Source: Myxococcota bacterium (GTDB lineage: Bacteria > Myxococcota_C > UBA6777). From it: DNA of 64,000 bases. Positions 11,261 through 61,256 of the stretch are shown piece after piece (the first letter of the stretch is position 1; each line of letters starts with the position of its first letter). Below the pieces are notes generated by a model. That model saw nothing but the letters and a program-made list of their open reading frames with translations, was not told where the DNA came from and searched no databases. A program made the translations under genes and the position numbers. Location: contig JAKLKB010000021.1 of NCBI GenBank assembly GCA_023150835.1, positions 1-64,000 on the forward strand, read 5' to 3'.

Positions 11261-11320
11261 GCCTGACGCGCCGCGTTTTTGGCATCGTGAAAGTGTAGAG
11301 AGCAGCATTGCAGGACGAAC

Positions 11321-13900
11321 ATGTCACAGACACATCCCACCAGCGAAGAGATCTTGCTTGATGACTTGCGGTTGGTCCGTCGGATCGCCACAGGGGGGAT
11401 GGCCGAGGTTTGGGAAGCCCGTCAGATCGGCGTTCAGGGGTTTGAAAAGCGCCTTGCCGTCAAAGTGGTTTTGCCTCACTTGGTCGAAAATCAAGAATTT
11501 ATCCATATGTTTCTCGACGAAGGCCGCCTTGCAGCGCGTCTGGATCATCCCAATGTCTGCCAGATCTACAAGCTCGGCCATGCGCAAAATGCCAACACGT
11601 ATTATATGGCGATGGAATACATCGATGGTGTGGGGCTGAACACCATCTTGCGCGAGGCGGCGCGGCGCGGCTTGCCTCTTCCTTTCGAGCATTGTTGTCA
11701 GATCATGATCGGGGCGTGTGCGGGGTTGGATTACGCCCATTCTTGTACAGATGCACAAGGACGCCCGCTACATCTGGTGCATCGAGATATCTCTCCACAA
11801 AACTTGATGATCACTTTTGATGGTGCGGTCAAAGTGGTGGACTTTGGGATCGCAAAAGCAGCGACACAGATCCAACACACACGCGCTGGGGTGGTCAAAG
11901 GCAAGTATGCCTACATGTCACCCGAACAGGCGACCGCTGATGTCCTTGATCAGCGCAGCGATATCTTTGCTTTGGGGGTGGTGTTGTGGGAGATGACGAC
12001 GGGGCATCGGTTGTTTCGAGCAGACAACGAGATCGCAACGTTGCACAAGATCATTAGTGGCGATTATCCGCCTCCCTCGGCGTATCGGGATAGTTATCCG
12101 CCTGCCCTTGAGATGATCGTGATGCGTGCGCTCGCACCGAACCGCGAGGAGCGCTACCAAAATTGCGGTCAATTCCAAATGGATCTCGAAGATTTTCTGC
12201 TGCGTCATGGAATGGCCGCAGGCAGCAAGCGTTTGGCGCATTATGTCCGTTGGTTGATGTCAGGCGACGATCTGCCCGCTCCGACGGGTTCTGCCATCAG
12301 TCAAGCGTTTGATATCGGGGAGATGGGCTTGTCCACGCCTTCGCCGAGTCGTCCTGCGATCGGCATATATGCTCCGCCCGCTTCAACGCCCCTACCCACC
12401 GGCCATCTGATGCGACCCCCTCCAAGCGGGCCGATCCTACAAACTGCCACAGGAGCCCGACCGCTTTCCGGCCCCCACACAGGCCCGATGCAGCGAACGG
12501 GTTCTCTTGTCAAACCGCCCGTCGCCGAGGCCCCTACCGAAGGGCCTCCAAGAAGGCGTCGTCGTCGCGGAGGATGGGGGCTGATCTTCTTTTTGCTGTT
12601 GTTGTTTGCGGGGGGAGGAAGCTATCTGTATTACGCCTTTTGGAGCGGGCCGACTTCGACGCCTGAGACTTCGCCTCACTACTGGCTGATCCAAAGTCAG
12701 CCTCGGAACGCAGAACTCTTTGTCAACGGGATCTCTCAAGGCCGAACCCCCAAAGTGATCGTCTTTCCACAAAACAAACGCTTGATCCTCAAGATCTCCC
12801 TCAAGGGACATGAGCCTTATGTCCAACAGTTCAACCAAGTCAGCGAAGAACAAGTCCGACAGCCGCTCCAAGTCAAGTTGGTCCCAGAGTCCGAAGAGGC
12901 GGTCTTTGGTGAGATCGTGATCAATCTCCAGACGCCAAGTGCGCGAGTGATCTTGGACGGCGAGCAGATCAAGCCGATGGTACAGGGCAGCGGCATCTTT
13001 ATGAAGAAGGCTCGGGCTGGGCGCACACACACGCTGGCCGTTGAAGCCGAAGGATTCGAGCCGTTTTTTCAATCGTTTCGAGTCGAAAAGGACAAGCGGT
13101 TTGATTTTCAAGTGCGCTTGAAACGCAGCAAACGCACCCAAACGCCCCGCCGAGCCGCTCCCCGCCGCCGAACCCCATCACGTCGAGAGCCCCCCCGCGA
13201 ACGCTTGCCTGATCCCGGACTTCCGAACATCGACGAACCTACGCCGCGACGCGAAGAAACCAAAGAACAAGCGTGGCTTTCCGTTCAAAGCGAACCCGAA
13301 GGTGCCGAGGTCTGGCTCGACGGCAAACAAATCGGCACCACGCCGCTTTCTCGTACCGAAGTCCTTGCAGGAAAACACAAACTGATCTTGAAAAAAGCGG
13401 GCTACCAAACGATACAACGCGCTTTTTCCCTCTCTGCCGACGAATTAAAACCGTTGTCCTTTGAGCTACCACCCGCCCAAGAAGCCGCTTCGATCAAAGT
13501 GCAATTGGGAGCCTCCCCCAAAAGTCAAGTTTATCTCGACGGTCGTTATGTCGGTGTCACCCCGATCTACAACCACGAAGTGACTGAAGGCACACATGAG
13601 ATCGAGTTCCGCACCCTCCGGTACGGAGCCTCCCACAAGATGTCCGTCTCCGTTCGCTCCCCAAGCCAGCGCATCTTTCATCGCTTTCCTACAGGCGAGC
13701 TTCATGTTCTGACCCGCCCCGCTGCTGTGATCTTCCTCAACAATACCAAGCTCGGACCCGCCAATCGCCCCCCCTACCGAGTGCCTGTCGGGACGTATGT
13801 GGTCCGCCTCGTCGCAGACAACGGAAAGTCCTTGATCGAACGCGGTGTTGTGGTCAAAGCCGACCAAAAGACCAACCTCCGCAAAAAACTCGACCCCTGA
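11321..13900 (+). CDS. Transmembrane Ser/Thr protein kinase with C-terminal PEGA repeats
   Basis: A bacterial Hanks-type kinase. The Gly loop ATGGMAEVW is at residues 23-31, the ATP lysine in AVKVV, the catalytic loop HRDISPQN near 154 and DFG near 174, with YMSPEQA as the activation-segment end. A Pro/Ser/Thr-rich juxtamembrane stretch precedes a basic RRRRRR patch and one membrane helix (about 419-440). Beyond it lie about five PEGA-type beta modules (for example ELFVNG, EVWLDGKQIGTTP, QVYLDGRYVGVTP), probably exposed outside the inner membrane. Kinase plus PEGA is a frequent Myxococcota arrangement. Start ATG 11321 follows AGGACGAAC. The substrate is unknown. Confidence 0.92.
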   Translation: MSQTHPTSEEILLDDLRLVRRIATGGMAEVWEARQIGVQGFEKRLAVKVVLPHLVENQEFIHMFLDEGRLAARLDHPNVCQIYKLGHAQNANTYYMAMEYIDGVGLNTILREAARRGLPLPFEHCCQIMIGACAGLDYAHSCTDAQGRPLHLVHRDISPQNLMITFDGAVKVVDFGIAKAATQIQHTRAGVVKGKYAYMSPEQATADVLDQRSDIFALGVVLWEMTTGHRLFRADNEIATLHKIISGDYPPPSAYRDSYPPALEMIVMRALAPNREERYQNCGQFQMDLEDFLLRHGMAAGSKRLAHYVRWLMSGDDLPAPTGSAISQAFDIGEMGLSTPSPSRPAIGIYAPPASTPLPTGHLMRPPPSGPILQTATGARPLSGPHTGPMQRTGSLVKPPVAEAPTEGPPRRRRRRGGWGLIFFLLLLFAGGGSYLYYAFWSGPTSTPETSPHYWLIQSQPRNAELFVNGISQGRTPKVIVFPQNKRLILKISLKGHEPYVQQFNQVSEEQVRQPLQVKLVPESEEAVFGEIVINLQTPSARVILDGEQIKPMVQGSGIFMKKARAGRTHTLAVEAEGFEPFFQSFRVEKDKRFDFQVRLKRSKRTQTPRRAAPRRRTPSRREPPRERLPDPGLPNIDEPTPRREETKEQAWLSVQSEPEGAEVWLDGKQIGTTPLSRTEVLAGKHKLILKKAGYQTIQRAFSLSADELKPLSFELPPAQEAASIKVQLGASPKSQVYLDGRYVGVTPIYNHEVTEGTHEIEFRTLRYGASHKMSVSVRSPSQRIFHRFPTGELHVLTRPAAVIFLNNTKLGPANRPPYRVPVGTYVVRLVADNGKSLIERGVVVKADQKTNLRKKLDP

Positions 13901-43864: not shown

Positions 43865-46606
43865 ATGCTGCGGATAATCATTCAGGAAAAGAATGGGGGG
43901 CGGCAAGAGGTGGCGTTAGACAAGGACGAGATCAGTATCGGACGTGTCCCTGCCAATGATTTGCACCTTCCGAAGAACAACGTCTCAAAAAAGCACGCCG
44001 TGATCGTTCGTCAAGGAGCGAATTGGCAGCTTGTCGATATGCGTAGCACCAACGGCACGTTTATCAACGGCCAACAGCTTCAAGGAAGTCATGTCCTTCA
44101 ACCCAACGATCAGGTGATCATTGGAGATTTTTTGCTCCAATTTGATCTTGCTTCGGCCAACGATGCGATGCGGCCTCCCCCTGTTCCTGCGGGTCCGCCA
44201 TCGATGAGTTCTCCGTCGATGAGTCCGCCGTCGATGTCACCGATGGGGCCGCCGTCGATGCCTCCGATGGGACCACCACCCGGCCCACCGCCGTCGATGC
44301 CTCCGATGGGACCACCACCCGGCCCACCGCCGTCGATGCCTCCGATGGGACCACCACCCGGCCCACCGCCGTCGATGTCGCCGATGGGACCGCCGCCGTC
44401 GATGTCGCCGATGGGACCGCCGCCGTCGATGTCGCCGATGGGACCGCCGCCCGGGTTGGGCGCGCCGCCCCCTCGTCCGCCTGCACCGCCGATGGGACCG
44501 CCGATGAGTCCGATGTCTCCGATGGGATCGTCTCCGTCGATGTCGCCGATGAGTCCCCCTCCCGCTCCGCCGTCGATGCCGTCGATGGGACCGCCGCCCG
44601 GGTTGGGTGCGCCGCCCTCTCGTCCCCCTGCTCCTCCGATGGGGCCGCCGGGCGTGGGCGCACCTCCTGCGATGTCGGGCGATATGGGGATGCGACCGCC
44701 ACCGCCCCCGGGAGGCGGGCTAGGGTCCGCACCTCCAAGCCTTCCGAATCGCCCCGCAGCGTTTGATATGAGCGGACGACAACGTGCGTCCACATTGCCG
44801 ATCAGCGATGTTCCGCCGAGTCCTCCGCCCTCCAAAGCTCCGACGTCGTCTGTGCCTCCGAGTCTCGCGCCTCTTGGACAACCAACGGCCCCCTCGAAAG
44901 CCTTTGGTCAAGGACTTTCAGACGAAAGTCCCCATCGCGCTCAACAAGATATCGATCTTGTCGATCAATGGGATCGTGGACAAGACGATATCGCAACCCC
45001 TGCACCGCCATCCATCGAGCCGGATATGTTGACGGCAGATCATGACGCAGTGCTTTCGGACAGATCAGATCTTCCCGGCGGACTTCAAGAACCGACCGAA
45101 CACCAGCCCGAGCCGCCCCCTCGTTCTGTTTCTGCGTCTTCTGAGATCGGATCGCCCTACGCTAAAGGGCCAATCGCCGCTCAAAAAGCGACGCCTGTCC
45201 CGCCTTCTGCCGCGTCTATTCCGCCTAAATCGGTGCCTGTGCTGAAACGCTCGGCTGCCCCGCCAACCCCTGTCCCAGTACCTCAAAAAGCTGCGCCCCC
45301 AAAAGCCGCGCCCCCAAAAGCCGCGCCCCCAAAAGCCGCGCCCCCAAAAGCTGCCAAAGCACCCAAGATGCCGCCCAAACCCGCACCTGTGGTCTTTGAG
45401 GGCCTTTCCGAAGCGCACTTGGCTTTGTTGCAGGCTGCCCATGTGGTTTCGCAAGAAGCCATCGCACAAATGCCTTCTTTGCAAGAGGTCGTTGTGTCGT
45501 CCCCTGCGTTGCACGAAGAACTTCATGCGATCTTGCCGAGCGCTCTTGATCTCGCCCGTTCTAACGGACTTTCCGAGGGGACAGATGACGAGGGGATGCT
45601 GTTTGACCTTGTTTCGCGTGAGCTGTTGGGGTTCGGTGCGCTTGAAGAATTGTTGGATGATCTGAGCGTGACGGCTGTCATGGTGAGTGGACACCAACAA
45701 ATTCTGATCGAAAAAGAGGGGCAGATCAGCCCATCTCTGCGGTTTTTTTCAAGCGAACAGGCCCTTGCGAGGGCGATCTTGCGCCTTGCGACGTTGGCGG
45801 GTGAGTCTGCCGAAGCGTTTGGTGTACTTGAAACACGCCTTCCCGATGGGATCTGGTTTCATGCGATCTTCCCGCCCTATGCGCGTCGAGGGATCTCGTT
45901 AACGTTGCGCAAACCTCGCACAGAGCGGCTGTCTCTTGACGAAGCGTTGGACGAAGGCTTCCTCAGCGGCGATATGGCTGAAGTGCTGAAACAAGCGGTC
46001 GAACGGCGTTGCAATATCCTTGTTTCGGGTACGGACCAAGACGGGCGCATCGGCTTGTTGAACCTGCTTGCAGACGCCATCCCGAGCCACGAACGTGTCG
46101 TGTCGATCGAGTCTTTCGGAGACCTACAGTTCTCTCAACTCAACTGGGTGGCGCTGACGCAGCGCGGCGGTGATCTCCAAGGCCAAGGGGCTGTTCCTCA
46201 CAGCGCACTCCTCGAACAAGCCCTGCGTATCCGACCCCAACGCTTGGTCTTGGCGGAGATGGCTTCCAAAGAGGCGGAGATCTTGGTGCCTGCGTTGGTC
46301 GCAGGCATGGATGGTGTGATCTGTGCGCTGGGTGCTTCCTCTGTGGCACAAGCACAGCGTCGATTGGTCGCCTCGCTCGAAGCCGAAGGCGTTCGCTCCG
46401 CCTCAAAACAGATCGCCGAAGCGTTCCAACTGTTCGTACAGATCGGCACTTTTGCGGATGGTTCTCGCCGTGTTCTTTCGATTACGGAGATATCTACCGA
46501 CGAACAAGGAGAGCCTTGGCTGAGCGAGTTGTATCGCTTTGAAAGTGATTCTCCCGCTTCTTCGGACGGTCAGTTTGTGGCAGTGGCCGAACCTTCTTTC
46601 CTCTAA
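43865..46606 (+). CDS. FHA domain fused to a CpaF-like secretion ATPase lacking catalytic motifs
   Basis: A 913-residue protein. Residues 1-95 are a forkhead-associated domain (ISIGR, the SKKH and RSTNGTFING signatures), which normally binds phospho-Thr. A long Pro/Met/Gly/Ser-rich region follows, containing tandem PPSMPPMGPP-type units (nt 44210-44460) and KAAPP repeats (nt 45292-45355). From about residue 515, the chain matches CpaF: TRLPDG, IPPYA-like FPPYA, SLTLRKP, SLDEAL, ERVVSIES, and DGSRRVLSITEI. The Walker A position reads SGTDQDGRIG instead of GxxGxGKT, the Walker B position reads VLAEMASKEA instead of VGEVRGGEA, and the His box TLHANS reads ALGASS. All ATPase motifs are therefore missing. 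ATG 43865 follows GGAAGGAATAATGG. No other pilus gene is nearby. Confidence 0.85.
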   Translation: MLRIIIQEKNGGRQEVALDKDEISIGRVPANDLHLPKNNVSKKHAVIVRQGANWQLVDMRSTNGTFINGQQLQGSHVLQPNDQVIIGDFLLQFDLASANDAMRPPPVPAGPPSMSSPSMSPPSMSPMGPPSMPPMGPPPGPPPSMPPMGPPPGPPPSMPPMGPPPGPPPSMSPMGPPPSMSPMGPPPSMSPMGPPPGLGAPPPRPPAPPMGPPMSPMSPMGSSPSMSPMSPPPAPPSMPSMGPPPGLGAPPSRPPAPPMGPPGVGAPPAMSGDMGMRPPPPPGGGLGSAPPSLPNRPAAFDMSGRQRASTLPISDVPPSPPPSKAPTSSVPPSLAPLGQPTAPSKAFGQGLSDESPHRAQQDIDLVDQWDRGQDDIATPAPPSIEPDMLTADHDAVLSDRSDLPGGLQEPTEHQPEPPPRSVSASSEIGSPYAKGPIAAQKATPVPPSAASIPPKSVPVLKRSAAPPTPVPVPQKAAPPKAAPPKAAPPKAAPPKAAKAPKMPPKPAPVVFEGLSEAHLALLQAAHVVSQEAIAQMPSLQEVVVSSPALHEELHAILPSALDLARSNGLSEGTDDEGMLFDLVSRELLGFGALEELLDDLSVTAVMVSGHQQILIEKEGQISPSLRFFSSEQALARAILRLATLAGESAEAFGVLETRLPDGIWFHAIFPPYARRGISLTLRKPRTERLSLDEALDEGFLSGDMAEVLKQAVERRCNILVSGTDQDGRIGLLNLLADAIPSHERVVSIESFGDLQFSQLNWVALTQRGGDLQGQGAVPHSALLEQALRIRPQRLVLAEMASKEAEILVPALVAGMDGVICALGASSVAQAQRRLVASLEAEGVRSASKQIAEAFQLFVQIGTFADGSRRVLSITEISTDEQGEPWLSELYRFESDSPASSDGQFVAVAEPSFL

Positions 46607-46690
46607 CGATATCCGAGCGATGTATCCACAAAGGAGAGTACGTAGACGCCCGATTGTTGGGCAGCCACACCTGTCTGCCCCCATAGGCGT
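46606..46690. repeat. Dispersed repeat (family B, copy 2)
   Basis: It begins acgatatccgagcg, sharing its first base with the FHA-CpaF stop codon, and continues through cacaaaggagagtacgtagacgcccg, ttgggcagccacacctgtctgcccc. The copies at 30800 and 61718 match over most of this length. Confidence 0.75.
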
Positions 46691-46775
46691 TAGGTTAAGC
46701 TATGGTTGGCCCCCCACCGAAGCCAAAGACCGTGAACAGGGGAGGGAGAGAAAGTCGGAGGCAGCGAGGTTTTGG

Positions 46776-46926
46776 TTTTCCATGCCGCACGCTGTTTGCA
46801 CGAGAGAGCGTCTTTGCCTGCTCCAACTTCCCCCCGTTGGCCGGGGGGAATGAGGGGGGGCGACAAAAGAAAGAGCGATCATCCTCGATTCTCCGATATT
46901 TCCGCCTTAACAAGGCGCGTATGGGG
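46776..46926. repeat. Dispersed repeat (family C, copy 2)
   Basis: Matches the left edge of the window (1-146). It holds a CCCCCCG/CGGGGGG inverted repeat, a G-rich run, and ccgccttaacaaggcgcgta. It forms part of the 642-bp gene-free stretch between the two FHA-protein genes. Confidence 0.7.
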
Positions 46927-46938
46927 GGTGCCTCTACG

Positions 46939-47212
46939 TGTTGGAAATCACACGATGTTTCGTAGGGGCAGGCCCCCGTGCCTGCCCGATCTCTGTTGCG
47001 TCGGTGACCTCTTCATCGCCATCTGTTCTGAACGAGCCCCAACAACAGGGCAACCACAGGGGGTTGCCCCTACGTGTTGGAAATCACAAGGTGTTTCGTA
47101 GGGGCAGGCCCCCGTGCCTGCCCGATCTCTGTTGCGTCGGTGACCTCTTCATCGCCATCTGTTCTGAACGAGCCCCAACAACAGGGCAACCACACCTGTC
47201 TACCTTGACCGT
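46939..47212. repeat. 136-bp tandem duplication containing GTAGGGGCAGGCCCC hairpins
   Basis: Each unit starts near acgtgttggaaatcac and runs through cgtaggggcaggcccccgtg and ggtgacctcttcatcgcc to acagggcaaccaca. The unit starts are 136 bp apart (ttggaaatca at 46941 and 47077), and the copies are almost identical. The second copy's tail diverges into the family-B phrase cacctgtct. No gene is present. Confidence 0.9.
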
Positions 47213-47248
47213 GTTCGATCACACGATGAGCGGGGCGTGGGGCGTCTT

Positions 47249-48130
47249 TTAGTACACGTTCGGATAGACGGCCCAGATCTCTTGATTGATGCGTTGTGCA
47301 ACATCGAGCAACATCTCGATCGAAGGGCCGGGGAAGCGTTCGGGGAGGGGGATGGGGGCGGGTCCAAGGACACCGTAGGTTTCGTGAGGCTCGTAATGAC
47401 CGGGGAAGAGACCTTGGCCGAAAGGATTGGACGGGGCGTTGCTTGGCATACTTGCGGCCTCGGTGGGTATGCTTGCAGCGTTTGAAGGTACGGGCGAAGA
47501 GGGCGAGTTGTAGGCGGGGCTTGCGGAGGTTGGAGAGGCGGAATAAGCGAGGCTTGCGGTGGTGGGGGCGTCCGACATCAAGTGAGCGTGTTCGTTGGTG
47601 GATTCGAGGATGGCGTCATCACCGATCTCGATGACATCGTGTTGGCCTGTGGCATGGCCGGGAAGCTGAGTGCCGTCGAGTGAAAAGTCTGGAAGGCCCG
47701 ATAGTTCGGCGTCAAGGGCCACAAGGGCATCGTCCATTTCGGCGGCTTGAGCGATCGCAGACGTAGCGTTGGAAGGGGCCGAACCAGCGCGATCTGCGGT
47801 GCTTTTGAGGGCATCCGCGCCGATGTATACGGTGATACGGGTTTGCCCGACTTGGAGCAGATCGCCGTTTGACAGCTTGCCACGGGCTCCGACGCTTTTT
47901 CCGTTGACGGAAGTGGAGGCGGCTCCCATATCCACGACGTTGACATCGCTTTCTTTTCGGATATTGATGGCAGCGTGAACTCGCCCGATGCTTGGGTCTT
48001 CGAGCGGCACGTCGATGCCTTTGCGAGCGCCGCGTCCGATCTTGAGGACGGTGCTGTCCTCGAAAAACATCTCGTGTACGGGTGTGTTGGGTTCTTGAAT
48101 CACCAGTCGGATCGGTACATTGTTTGACAT
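47249..48130 (-). CDS. FHA-domain protein with Ser/Pro/Ala-rich linker
   Basis: A 293-residue protein. Residues 1-105 are a forkhead-associated domain (LKIGRG, DPSIGRVHAAI, STSVNGKSV). A low-complexity Ala/Ser/Pro/Asn middle section follows. The last 35 residues (PERFPGPSIEMLLDVAQRINQEIWAVYP) look like a conserved helix. There is no enzyme domain, so it is probably a phospho-Thr adaptor; either Ser/Thr kinase in the window could be a source of its ligand, though nothing shows this. ATG 48130 follows GAGGGGCACG; four extra upstream codons are possible. It faces the FHA-CpaF gene across the repeat-rich gap. Confidence 0.85.
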   Translation of the reverse strand: MSNNVPIRLVIQEPNTPVHEMFFEDSTVLKIGRGARKGIDVPLEDPSIGRVHAAINIRKESDVNVVDMGAASTSVNGKSVGARGKLSNGDLLQVGQTRITVYIGADALKSTADRAGSAPSNATSAIAQAAEMDDALVALDAELSGLPDFSLDGTQLPGHATGQHDVIEIGDDAILESTNEHAHLMSDAPTTASLAYSASPTSASPAYNSPSSPVPSNAASIPTEAASMPSNAPSNPFGQGLFPGHYEPHETYGVLGPAPIPLPERFPGPSIEMLLDVAQRINQEIWAVYPNVY

Positions 48131-48233
48131 CGTGCCCCTCATCTCGCCGTCGTGTCGTGTGTGGGAGAAAACGTAGACCGTTCTTAAAGCACTTTGCGGT
48201 TGGATGCAAGAGATCCACCGAAGGAGTCCGTGT

Positions 48234-48896: not shown

Positions 48897-49063
48897 CGCC
48901 CCCATCCCCCCGTCCCTCCAAGTCTCCAAAGAACGAGGAGAGCAAAGCCCGCGCAGAAGCCTTGGCGGCGTCATGATCTCTTGCTTCTTCGTGCGGTGGC
49001 GTGCTATGTAGGGGGAAACACCGCGCATGGGGGCGGTCGTCTGGGTCCAATCGGAGGTTTGTG

Positions 49064-50446
49064 ATGTTTCGTCTGCGGTTTTCTTTTGTGTGGATGGTGT
49101 TGTTGTTTCTCGGCGTCCTTGTGATGCCTGTGGGATGTGATAGTGGCCTCAAGCCTTGCAAAACCCGCAATGATTGTGCAGATCCCGGGACGGATATCTG
49201 CTTGCGTGGGTTTTGCTTCTTGCGCTGTACGACAGACAAAGACTGCACCAATGGGAAAAAATGCAACGCACAAGGCGGATGCGGTGAACTGCCCGATAGC
49301 GGGACGCCTGTGGGCGATTGCTCTAGCGGAGACACGCGCAAATGTTATAACGCTGCCTCGGGATGCGTGGAAGATAGCGGTCAATTCTTGTGCAAAGGCA
49401 TCTGCAAAGAAGGGACGCAGAAGTGCGGAACAGACGGAAAGTGGGGCGCTTGTGAAGGACAGATCGTTCCTGAAAGCAAAGAAGTCTGTGGCGATGCGAA
49501 AGACAACAACTGCAACGGCGAAACGGACGAAGGTTGCGGAACCGTGATCTGTACGCTCGGCCAAAAGAAAGCCTGTTTTACGGGAGCGACGGGTTGCACA
49601 CAAAGCGGAGATACCTACTCTTGCAAAGGCAATTGCAAGGCAGGCGACCGAGTCTGCCAACCCGGAACGGACGGAAAGCCCGAATGGAGCGAGTGCAAAG
49701 ACCAAGTCTTGCCGATCGCAGAGTCTTGTACCAACAACATCGACGACAACTGCGACGGAGAAGTCAACGAAGGCTGTGCTTGTAAAGTCGGCGAATCCCG
49801 CAAATGCTCGGCCCCGAATGGTTGTGGAGGCATCCAAACTTGCCAAACCAAAGGGGGCGGGTCTGAATGGACGACTTGTGTGGCGTCTGCACCAAGCGAC
49901 GAAGTCTGCGATGGGATCGACAATGATTGCGACGGAAAGATCGATAACGTCAAAGGTTCGGACACCAAGCTCACACGCGACTGCGCCAAGCTGTGCTTCA
50001 AAGGCAAAGAAACTTGTACTGACGGCAAGTTTCAAAACTGCGATGCCGAAGACCCCATCCCCGATGGCAAGGGCGAACACGAAGACACCGATGGCGACAA
50101 GATCCCTGACGTTGAAAAATGGTGCAATGGTCGCGATGACGATTGCGACGGTCGCATCGACAACGTCAAAGGGCGCGATGTCAAGATCCGCCGTAGCTGT
50201 GACCCTTCGACCCCGGGAAAACCCGTGTTTGGTCCATGCAAAGACAACGCTTCGCAAGAGTGCGCAGACGGCGCAACCATCGGCAATCCCAAGTGGGGGA
50301 CTTGTGAAGGCGGAAAGCCCGCAGACGCCGAAGCTTGTGATGGTGTCGATAACGACTGCGACGGTCAAATCGATGAAGATGCCGTCTGTCCCGATGGAGA
50401 AAAGTGCCAGAAAAACACCCTTGGCAACAAGGTTTGTGCGCCCTAA
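49064..50446 (+). CDS. Cys-rich lipoprotein with MopE-like DNDCDG repeats
   Basis: A 460-residue protein. The signal peptide ends in VMPVGCDSG, a lipobox with Asp at +2. The mature protein has five copies of an Asp/Asn/Cys motif (DNNCNGETDEGC, DDNCDGEVNEGC, DNDCDGKIDNV, DDDCDGRIDNV, DNDCDGQIDED) as in the MopE-type metal-binding repeat family common in Myxococcota. Between them lie other Cys-rich segments (CCTDKDCTNG-like CRTNDC, KCGTDGKWGACEG). The Asp/Asn clusters could bind calcium or other metals; this is known for related proteins, not shown here. ATG 49064 follows GGAGGTTTGTG. The next gene starts 78 bp downstream. Confidence 0.85.
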   Translation: MFRLRFSFVWMVLLFLGVLVMPVGCDSGLKPCKTRNDCADPGTDICLRGFCFLRCTTDKDCTNGKKCNAQGGCGELPDSGTPVGDCSSGDTRKCYNAASGCVEDSGQFLCKGICKEGTQKCGTDGKWGACEGQIVPESKEVCGDAKDNNCNGETDEGCGTVICTLGQKKACFTGATGCTQSGDTYSCKGNCKAGDRVCQPGTDGKPEWSECKDQVLPIAESCTNNIDDNCDGEVNEGCACKVGESRKCSAPNGCGGIQTCQTKGGGSEWTTCVASAPSDEVCDGIDNDCDGKIDNVKGSDTKLTRDCAKLCFKGKETCTDGKFQNCDAEDPIPDGKGEHEDTDGDKIPDVEKWCNGRDDDCDGRIDNVKGRDVKIRRSCDPSTPGKPVFGPCKDNASQECADGATIGNPKWGTCEGGKPADAEACDGVDNDCDGQIDEDAVCPDGEKCQKNTLGNKVCAP

Positions 50447-59060: not shown

Positions 59061-61046
59061 TCAAGAAAAAGAGGAGGATGAGGAGCGGGAGGGGGATTCT
59101 TCGCGGGTGTCATGGTTCCAAAGCAGAAAGACGCCTGTAAAGACGGCGAGATTGGCGGCGCTCAGGAAAAGATAGACCCATGAGGGGTAGAGGATCGCGG
59201 CGATCATGCAAAAGAAATACATGACAACATAGCGAAGCATCCGCCAATCGAGGGAGATCATCATACTGGCTGTGAATGCAAAGACCATCGGCATCTCAAG
59301 GACGAGCATTTGATGGGGGGTGGTGTTGGCGCGCATCCCTGCGAGTCCATGAAAAATGAAGGTAAACGCCAAGAGCAAGATGTTGTAAGAGATCTTGCGA
59401 TTGATGGCATTTTGGAGGAGGCGTCCGCGCATCAGATAAAACAAGCCCGCGATCAGGAGGGTGGAGACGATATCGGACTGAATGCGATCCCACATCCCGC
59501 CTTGGGAGTAGCCGGCTTGTTCGAGATAGCGGGTGATTAAGGGAGAGAGGCCCCATGTAAAGCCCAAGGCAAGGGCAAAATAGCTGCGTCCTCTTGCGCC
59601 GATGGTGAGGCTCGCGTCTTGCTCCATCTGCTTGAGTTTGCTGTATTCTTCGGCACGTTGGAAGTCGTGTTGAAGAAGATCTTGGATCGCTTGTTGGAGA
59701 GGTTCATTTTCGGCGGGAGGCAGGGGATCTTGCTTGTTGAGTTCGTGCAAGAGGCGTTGGGCAGCGCGGGCGTTGCGTTGTTGGATCTCGTAGCGGATCA
59801 TCAAGGTGAGTGCGCCTTGGAGACCTGCGCGTGCGTGCGGATTGTCGGGCCATTCGCGCAAGGCCTGTTGGAATCCAAAGCGCGCTTCGGAAAAGAAGCT
59901 ATGGATCTGAACGTGGGGATCGTTGTAGCGGCTATCATGGAAATCTTCGGCGTGTTGGAGGGTTTTGCTGAGATCGCGTAATCGCTGTTCTGCGTACTCG
60001 CTGAGCTGCCGAGAGCTGCGGTGTTTAAGAAAAGCCGCGAGGGCTTGGCGCAGTTCTTGGGCGGTACGGAATCGTAGGTTTTGATCGAAGTGCATGGCTT
60101 TGTGTGCGATGGCCGCGAGATCAGGGGGGAGGTGTCGTGGGTAAGGGTAGGGCGGAGAAGAGTAGGCGTGATGGAGGATCTCGGCGATACTTTGGCCTGT
60201 ATGGGGAGCTTGGCCGACCATGATCTCGTGCAAGATCGCACCCAACAAGTACACGTCGGTGGTGGGACTCCATGCGGCGCGTTGCCAGTCGACCATCTCA
60301 GGCGGCATATAGGCGGGTGTACCCGAGATCCCTTTGATATCGCCGACAGAGGGGACGCCCTCAAGCGGTCCAAGCCAACTGACGGCGACACCCCAGTCCA
60401 CGACGTAGACTTCGCCGAACTCGCCGATCATCACGTTGTCGGGCTTGAGATCGCGGTGCAAGATGCCCTTGCTGTGGGCAAAGTGGATCGCGTTGCAGAC
60501 CTGCATCAACGTGCGAAGGTGCCATTCGAGAGGATCAAAACCGGTATCGCTGTATTCGGGGATCTTTTTTTCGTCGAGCAGCAGATCGCTCCATGCGAGA
60601 CCTTTGACTTTTTTCATCACTAAAGCGGGGGAGTCTTCGTGGGTGCGGCCAAGCGCGTACACAGGGATGATGTTGGGATGTTCAAGATAGCCTGTAATCC
60701 GGGCTTCTTGAAGTAGCCGTTGGACAGCTTCGTGGGTGCGGTATTCGGGGGGAAGCATCTTGATCGCGACTTCGCGGGAGAGGGCGGATTGACTGGCAGA
60801 CCAAACTTCGCCCATGCCACCGCGCCCAATGCGATCACGCAACACAAAGTTGACGCCTTCGGTGTGTTGTTCTTCGTTTTCGATCAAGAGTGGCAAGGAG
60901 CGCAGCGGGATCGCGTAGTCGCTCAGGTGAGATTCGGGCATCAACGTGGTGCGAAAAGCGAGGGTGGGTGAACTGGGGTTTCCTTCCGTAAGGGAAAGGC
61001 TCAACCAAACCTGCTCAAATTCCGCGCGCTTGGGGGATGAATCCAT
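59061..61046 (-). CDS. Ser/Thr protein kinase with C-terminal membrane region
   Basis: A 661-residue Hanks-type kinase. Motifs: GRGGMGEVW (about 72-80), VAIKML, HRDLKPDN (about 195), VVDWGVAV (DWG replaces DFG) and GTPAYMPPE. A helical region rich in Ala/Arg/Glu (about 360-490) follows, with TPR-like patterns (NPHARAGLQGALTLMIRYEIQQRNARAAQRLL). Six or more membrane helices lie from about 490 to 645, and the tail is Ser-rich. The usual order of kinase-TM-extracellular sensor is therefore absent; the sensor may be the membrane domain. ATG 61046 has AAAGGAG 12 bases upstream; ATG 61088 is an alternative. The frame is open to 61223. Confidence 0.88.
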   Translation of the reverse strand: MDSSPKRAEFEQVWLSLSLTEGNPSSPTLAFRTTLMPESHLSDYAIPLRSLPLLIENEEQHTEGVNFVLRDRIGRGGMGEVWSASQSALSREVAIKMLPPEYRTHEAVQRLLQEARITGYLEHPNIIPVYALGRTHEDSPALVMKKVKGLAWSDLLLDEKKIPEYSDTGFDPLEWHLRTLMQVCNAIHFAHSKGILHRDLKPDNVMIGEFGEVYVVDWGVAVSWLGPLEGVPSVGDIKGISGTPAYMPPEMVDWQRAAWSPTTDVYLLGAILHEIMVGQAPHTGQSIAEILHHAYSSPPYPYPRHLPPDLAAIAHKAMHFDQNLRFRTAQELRQALAAFLKHRSSRQLSEYAEQRLRDLSKTLQHAEDFHDSRYNDPHVQIHSFFSEARFGFQQALREWPDNPHARAGLQGALTLMIRYEIQQRNARAAQRLLHELNKQDPLPPAENEPLQQAIQDLLQHDFQRAEEYSKLKQMEQDASLTIGARGRSYFALALGFTWGLSPLITRYLEQAGYSQGGMWDRIQSDIVSTLLIAGLFYLMRGRLLQNAINRKISYNILLLAFTFIFHGLAGMRANTTPHQMLVLEMPMVFAFTASMMISLDWRMLRYVVMYFFCMIAAILYPSWVYLFLSAANLAVFTGVFLLWNHDTREESPSRSSSSSFS

Positions 61047-61207
61047 CTTTTTCGACTGCTCCTTTGCTTCCGCAAGGTCCGTCTCCATCGCGGTAGAAGC
61101 TTTCTTTTGGGGAGGGGGCCTCCGTTCCACACGGCAGATCAAAGCACAAAGCACAGCACACAACAACTGAAAAGATGACGGTCGTTTTATCGCGCACGAA
61201 AAAACGA

Positions 61208-61256
61208 AAAGCAGCATATCCAAAGATCAGAAAAAATCTTGGATACGCTGCTTTTG
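61208..61256. terminator. Long terminator-like inverted repeat
   Basis: AAAAGCAGC...TATCCAA...GAT and ATC...TTGGATA...GCTGCTTTT form a stem of about 20 bp with one or two mismatches and a small A-rich loop. T-runs occur on both strands. It lies upstream of the kinase and may terminate a transcript coming from the XRE side. Confidence 0.6.

Follow-up and report, generated by a model that had tools for sequence, protein, structure and literature searches.

An FHA-CpaF protein with a decayed ATPase site: a probable phosphothreonine-reading scaffold that appears to derive from the Kil motor KilF

KilF, the ATPase of the prey-killing Kil system of Myxococcus, is a CpaF ATPase that carries a fused N-terminal FHA domain (PMC8460266, PMC12075869). 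Fusions of FHA and CpaF are thus already known under that name (PMC8460266). Residue roles in such a motor are given for Caulobacter CpaF, in which K287 coordinates the gamma-phosphate and the K287A substitution abolishes ATPase activity (PMC12019362). In the literature searched we found no report of a role for the FHA domain of KilF; nor did we find, in a search that had most subscription journals outside its scope, a description of a pseudo-ATPase form of CpaF or KilF. Here we describe an FHA-CpaF protein that is best explained, as a whole, as a pseudo-motor descended from KilF that probably serves as a scaffold reading phospho-Thr.

The window analyzed, a stretch of 64,000 nucleotides, is nearly all of a 64,075-bp contig (C150) in a MAG (G000) of 7.56 Mb that is 93% complete and 2% contaminated. 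The gene lies at 43865..46606 on the forward strand, as do all of its features given below. It is an intact open reading frame with an ATG start that encodes 913 aa, and it has orthologues in four further genomes of the lineage (G001 to G004), which together with G000 are the five genomes of this phylum in the set analyzed. An FHA domain occupies aa 1-97 (43865..44155; Pfam 3.9e-18 over aa 23-87). It is followed by a low-complexity linker rich in Pro, Met and Ser (aa 98-505; 44156..45379), read from the sequence, which spans about 410 aa and differs in length among the orthologues. The remaining part, aa 506-913 (45380..46603), aligns end to end with CpaF/TadA over about 400 aa (TIGR03819 1e-50, under that model's curated cut-off; PDB CpaF 8rkd/9e24, 5e-40). 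A sequence-only reading of this stretch had proposed this make-up of FHA domain, long linker and CpaF-like C terminus, and the analysis confirms it on each point.

That reading had also held that the CpaF fold is probably kept. An AlphaFold2 model of the C-terminal domain, built from 41 aligned sequences, reached a pLDDT of 87.6 and a pTM of 0.79, and its best structure matches were solved CpaF proteins (9e24: Z 35.5, rmsd 4.7 over 390 residues, 27% identity). Profiles, model and structure comparison all point to a CpaF-type NTD followed by a RecA-like CAD, and they support the view that the fold is kept. Compared with the CpaF/TadA motors of Tad pili (PDB 9e24, 8rkd, 8rjf), the window protein shares the full-length fold, the arginines R217 and R347 and the acidic residues (Caulobacter numbering). 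It differs from them in lacking the catalytic Lys and the His box and in its fused FHA domain, and no Tad pilus system was found in its genome.

The N-terminal FHA domain joined to CpaF, the feature that marks KilF, is present in the window protein and in its orthologues. An FHA profile built from the lineage scored the FHA domains of intact FHA-CpaF proteins at 64-99 bits in nearly all cases (a few at 49-57 bits), whereas FHA proteins without CpaF reached 57 bits at most. The nearest relatives of this FHA domain are hence those of FHA-CpaF, or KilF-type, proteins, and it is from this difference in scores that we read the protein as KilF derived. CpaF-domain trees do not fix the place of the lineage, because it sits on long branches and its placement is unsure. 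Judged by its FHA domain and its architecture, the protein appears to have arisen from KilF, an origin that the sequence-only reading had not considered. It resembles KilF in having an N-terminal FHA and a CpaF-type C-terminal domain, in the fold, and in an FHA domain closest to those of Myxococcota FHA-CpaF proteins from Kil-like loci. It departs from KilF in the loss of the P-loop Lys, of the arginine finger R223 and of the His box, in the linker of about 410 aa, and in its neighbors. Canonical Myxococcota FHA-CpaF genes adjoin a KilC-like secretin gene in 11 of 11 loci and often a prepilin peptidase gene and an FHA-TPR gene too; such a secretin stands beside none of the four lineage loci, and the window locus shares no gene order with Kil loci beyond the FHA-CpaF gene itself.

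We mapped the catalytic residues in an alignment of the domain with Caulobacter CpaF and about 60 other sequences, taking residue roles from PMC12019362. The strings quoted in the sequence-only reading are present. Walker A reads SGTDQDGRIG (aa 721-730; 46025..46054), with R728 at the position of K287. A functional CpaF has GxxxxGK[ST] here; all five orthologues have Arg in place of the Lys. Walker A is SGTDQDGRTA in G001, another MAG of the same genus whose domain is 97% identical, and SGDPGSGRTT, SGAPGSGRTT and SGARGSGRSS in the orthologues from two other genera. Of the three arginine fingers, R217 (Arg658) and R347 (R788; 46226..46228) are kept, while R223 is replaced by Trp in 5/5 orthologues (W664 in the window protein; 45854..45856). 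D215 corresponds to Glu656. The His box has become ALGASS (aa 821-826; 46325..46342), and the five orthologues carry Gly, Gly, Arg, Arg and Gln where the His is expected. On the other hand, the Asp-box acid E312 is E or D in every orthologue (D753 here; 46121..46123), as is the Walker B acid E357, which is E798 within VLAEMASKEA (aa 795-804; 46247..46276), where the next conserved Arg is lost. K287R, R223W, D215E and the absence of the His box are thus common to all five proteins.

With no P-loop Lys, no His box and only two of the three arginine fingers left, hydrolysis is very unlikely, and we conclude that it has very probably been lost in all five orthologues. The sequence-only reading had argued for this loss on the ground that every ATPase motif is replaced. 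The loss remains very probable, but the ground was too broad: the P-loop Lys, R223, D215 and the His box are replaced, whereas R217, R347 and the acids of Walker B and the Asp box are retained.

These retained residues are what recommends the main rival explanation, in which the protein would bind nucleotide without turning it over and act as an ATP/ADP-gated switch that alters the ring and FHA-mediated assembly. Three of the five orthologues even keep GxxGSGR(T/S), with only the Lys lost. However, the missing Lys is the one that in Caulobacter contacts the gamma-phosphate and whose mutation abolishes activity (PMC12019362), and it is gone in 5/5 orthologues; the P-loop itself is eroded in the genus of the window (DQDGRIG), and Trp replaces R223 throughout. 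We regard the switch as unlikely, though it is the alternative that fares best.

The single-domain TadB/TadC pair (KilG/KilH type, single T2SSF) was not found by PF00482 in any of the five lineage genomes. The matches there were only of the two-domain PilC/GspF kind; among them were one protein interrupted by a stop in G002 and one weak 429-aa match in G004. Five Myxococcota genomes with canonical FHA-CpaF, examined as a control, each showed two extra single-domain PF00482 proteins of 281-327 aa. A KilC query retrieved from the lineage genomes only distant secretins of other systems (26-35% identity) and no KilC-like secretin. No canonical CpaF was found in the five genomes either. The window genome thus differs from those with a Kil system: the searches found in it neither a Kil platform nor a KilC-like secretin nor a canonical CpaF. 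The lineage MAGs are only 86-94% complete, and so the case for these absences is that five genomes agree. Since the genomes show no TadB/TadC-type platform and no active CpaF, the protein drives no Tad or Kil pilus in them, within that completeness; the earlier proposal that it is no secretion motor is upheld.

Could it instead regulate a different secretion-type ATPase, such as PilB/PilT or that of a T2SS, as a subunit of a mixed ring or docked onto it? Other T2SSE-family ATPases are indeed available, at 10-16 matches per lineage genome, and the protein retains some inter-subunit arginines along with its fold. But these ATPases are distant, the profile of this domain matching them weakly or not at all, and we saw no T4P or T2SS gene adjacent at the loci. 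We consider such a subunit improbable.

Each of the five lineage genomes carries exactly one FHA-linker-CpaF gene, with its reading frame intact, and the five proteins form one well-supported group in trees (one tree took four of them). Between G000 and G001, dN/dS was 0 for the FHA domain (no amino acid change), 0.049 for the CpaF domain and 0.040 for the neighboring FeS oxidoreductase. The phosphopeptide-binding signature of the FHA domain (GR26-27, S41..H44, STNGT61-65, N68) is invariant in the lineage. The gene is real and under purifying selection. Sequencing error and a pseudogene, the former raised as a possible objection in the sequence-only reading, are ruled out by the independent MAG G001, the intact frames and the dN/dS of 0.05; the losses are shared by the copies in all five genomes. 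Close orthologues with intact Walker A/B motifs had been named in the same reading as counter-evidence; all five copies of the lineage are without the P-loop Lys. A profile scan of GTDB species genomes gave, among the best 80 matches, three lineage members and CpaFs of other phyla; no viral relatives were found. That the protein is being lost, a decaying relic in which only the FHA domain is functional and the CpaF domain is passively kept, would fit the low identity of the CpaF domain between genera (only about 32%, with the FHA domain far better conserved) and the loss of the last ~18 residues in the genus of the window, but is already disfavored and most unlikely given intact frames in all five genomes and a dead-domain dN/dS close to that of the FeS enzyme, with 0.075 for the dead domain of a pair from another family (G244/G245).

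The gene belongs to a conserved lineage block comprising a START-like protein, a DUF4388/DnaJ protein, a divergent FeS oxidoreductase, the FHA-pseudo-CpaF and a second FHA protein (the START and FeS names are putative, read from sequence). The second FHA protein, of 297 aa, is encoded convergently at 47249..48142 on the reverse strand and is a possible partner. Its gene is adjacent in four of the five genomes (the window, G001, G003 and G004), and in the fifth the contig breaks off too early. Immediately downstream in G002 and G004 there is a response-regulator/Ser-Thr kinase gene. The loci of the window and G003 lack it, although RR-kinase relatives occur elsewhere in every one of the five genomes. 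No kinase remnant was found in the window gap at 46607-47248. The sequence-only reading had asked whether such proteins neighbor FHA proteins or kinases: a second FHA gene is adjacent in 4/5 genomes, and the kinase gene in only 2/5.

Several other features of these regions may be recorded. The intergenic stretch 46607-47248 contains, as seen by eye, a near-identical direct repeat of about 115 bases holding GGGCAGGCCCCCGTGCCTGCCC. The CDGxDNDCDG motif recurs in a protein encoded at 49001-50446 of the window; the same block in G003 holds a homologue. Two further Ser/Thr protein kinase-like genes are found in the window, at about 11300-13900 (forward strand) and 59064-61223 (reverse strand). G002 (L044:4616-7486) and G004 (L043:163-2910) hold a second decayed CpaF, P2, with a GSGV P-loop, beside a Ser/Thr kinase gene. 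Like the window protein, P2 is a CpaF domain of this lineage without the P-loop Lys; unlike it, P2 has no FHA, has its CpaF domain at the N terminus with a tail of ~600 aa, and groups with a different CpaF lineage (L020/L031).

Taken as a whole, the pseudo-motor descended from KilF remains the explanation we favor, and a phospho-Thr-reading scaffold is its most likely role. We infer this role because the FHA site and the fold are kept, kinase and FHA genes are linked to the gene, and selection maintains it. The ancestor would have been KilF, the CpaF/TadA ATPase with a fused FHA domain that serves the Tad-like Kil system of myxobacteria. The lineage, lacking pilus platform and active CpaF, would have retained the FHA-CpaF protein while its catalytic site was worn down by an Arg in place of the P-loop Lys, a Trp in place of finger R223 and the disappearance of the His box, with strong selection holding on to the fold and to the phosphopeptide site of the FHA domain. 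In its present form the folded protein probably serves as a platform, perhaps an oligomeric one; its FHA domains would read phospho-Thr marks made by Ser/Thr kinases, and client proteins could be gathered via the long Pro-rich linker. Loss of hydrolysis, phospho-Thr binding, oligomerization, scaffolding and the clients are all inferred steps of this scheme.

Decay of this kind recurs, a point that also goes beyond the sequence-only reading. On reexamining low-scoring Myxococcota matches, we found dead FHA-CpaF proteins in seven other families (loci L268-L276 and L279, in genomes G244, G077, G241, G250, G075, G230, G240, G245, G242 and G071). Their Walker A motifs read STNSNADGTA in f60, SVGPGAGATA and SVGPGVNATA in f63, CAANGADLNA in f76, SSASPEMTSV in f78, AGSPGADLGT in f79, CGGPGAQIGT and CGGPGAGSGT in f80, and SGAPGTRRVQ in f85; one near-intact intermediate, AGAAGAGKTG, occurs in f59. 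The FHA signature is intact in all of the dead proteins. In 8/8 genomes searched again at E 1e-10 the dead protein was the sole CpaF match; G071 (f60) also encodes an intact CpaF that carries no FHA domain. A KilC-like secretin was found at none of the eight loci examined, against 11 of 11 canonical loci, and at these eight an FHA-TPR gene is adjacent in three and a double-FHA gene in two. The FHA tree does not join the dead forms, but a single clade is not rejected (p-AU of 0.25 for FHA and 0.54 for CpaF), and the trees are compatible with one origin as well as several.

We put at even odds the broader reading that FHA-pseudo-KilF proteins are a recurrent class of pseudo-motors in Myxococcota-like bacteria without a working Kil system, dead phospho-reading scaffolds sometimes accompanied by an adjacent FHA or FHA-TPR gene. 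If that reading is true, KilF has a signaling function that is separable from driving a pilus. A dead motor with FHA and fold kept, and sometimes an FHA neighbor, suggests a second, non-motor job for KilF, and with these natural dead forms that job could be studied in the absence of pilus activity.
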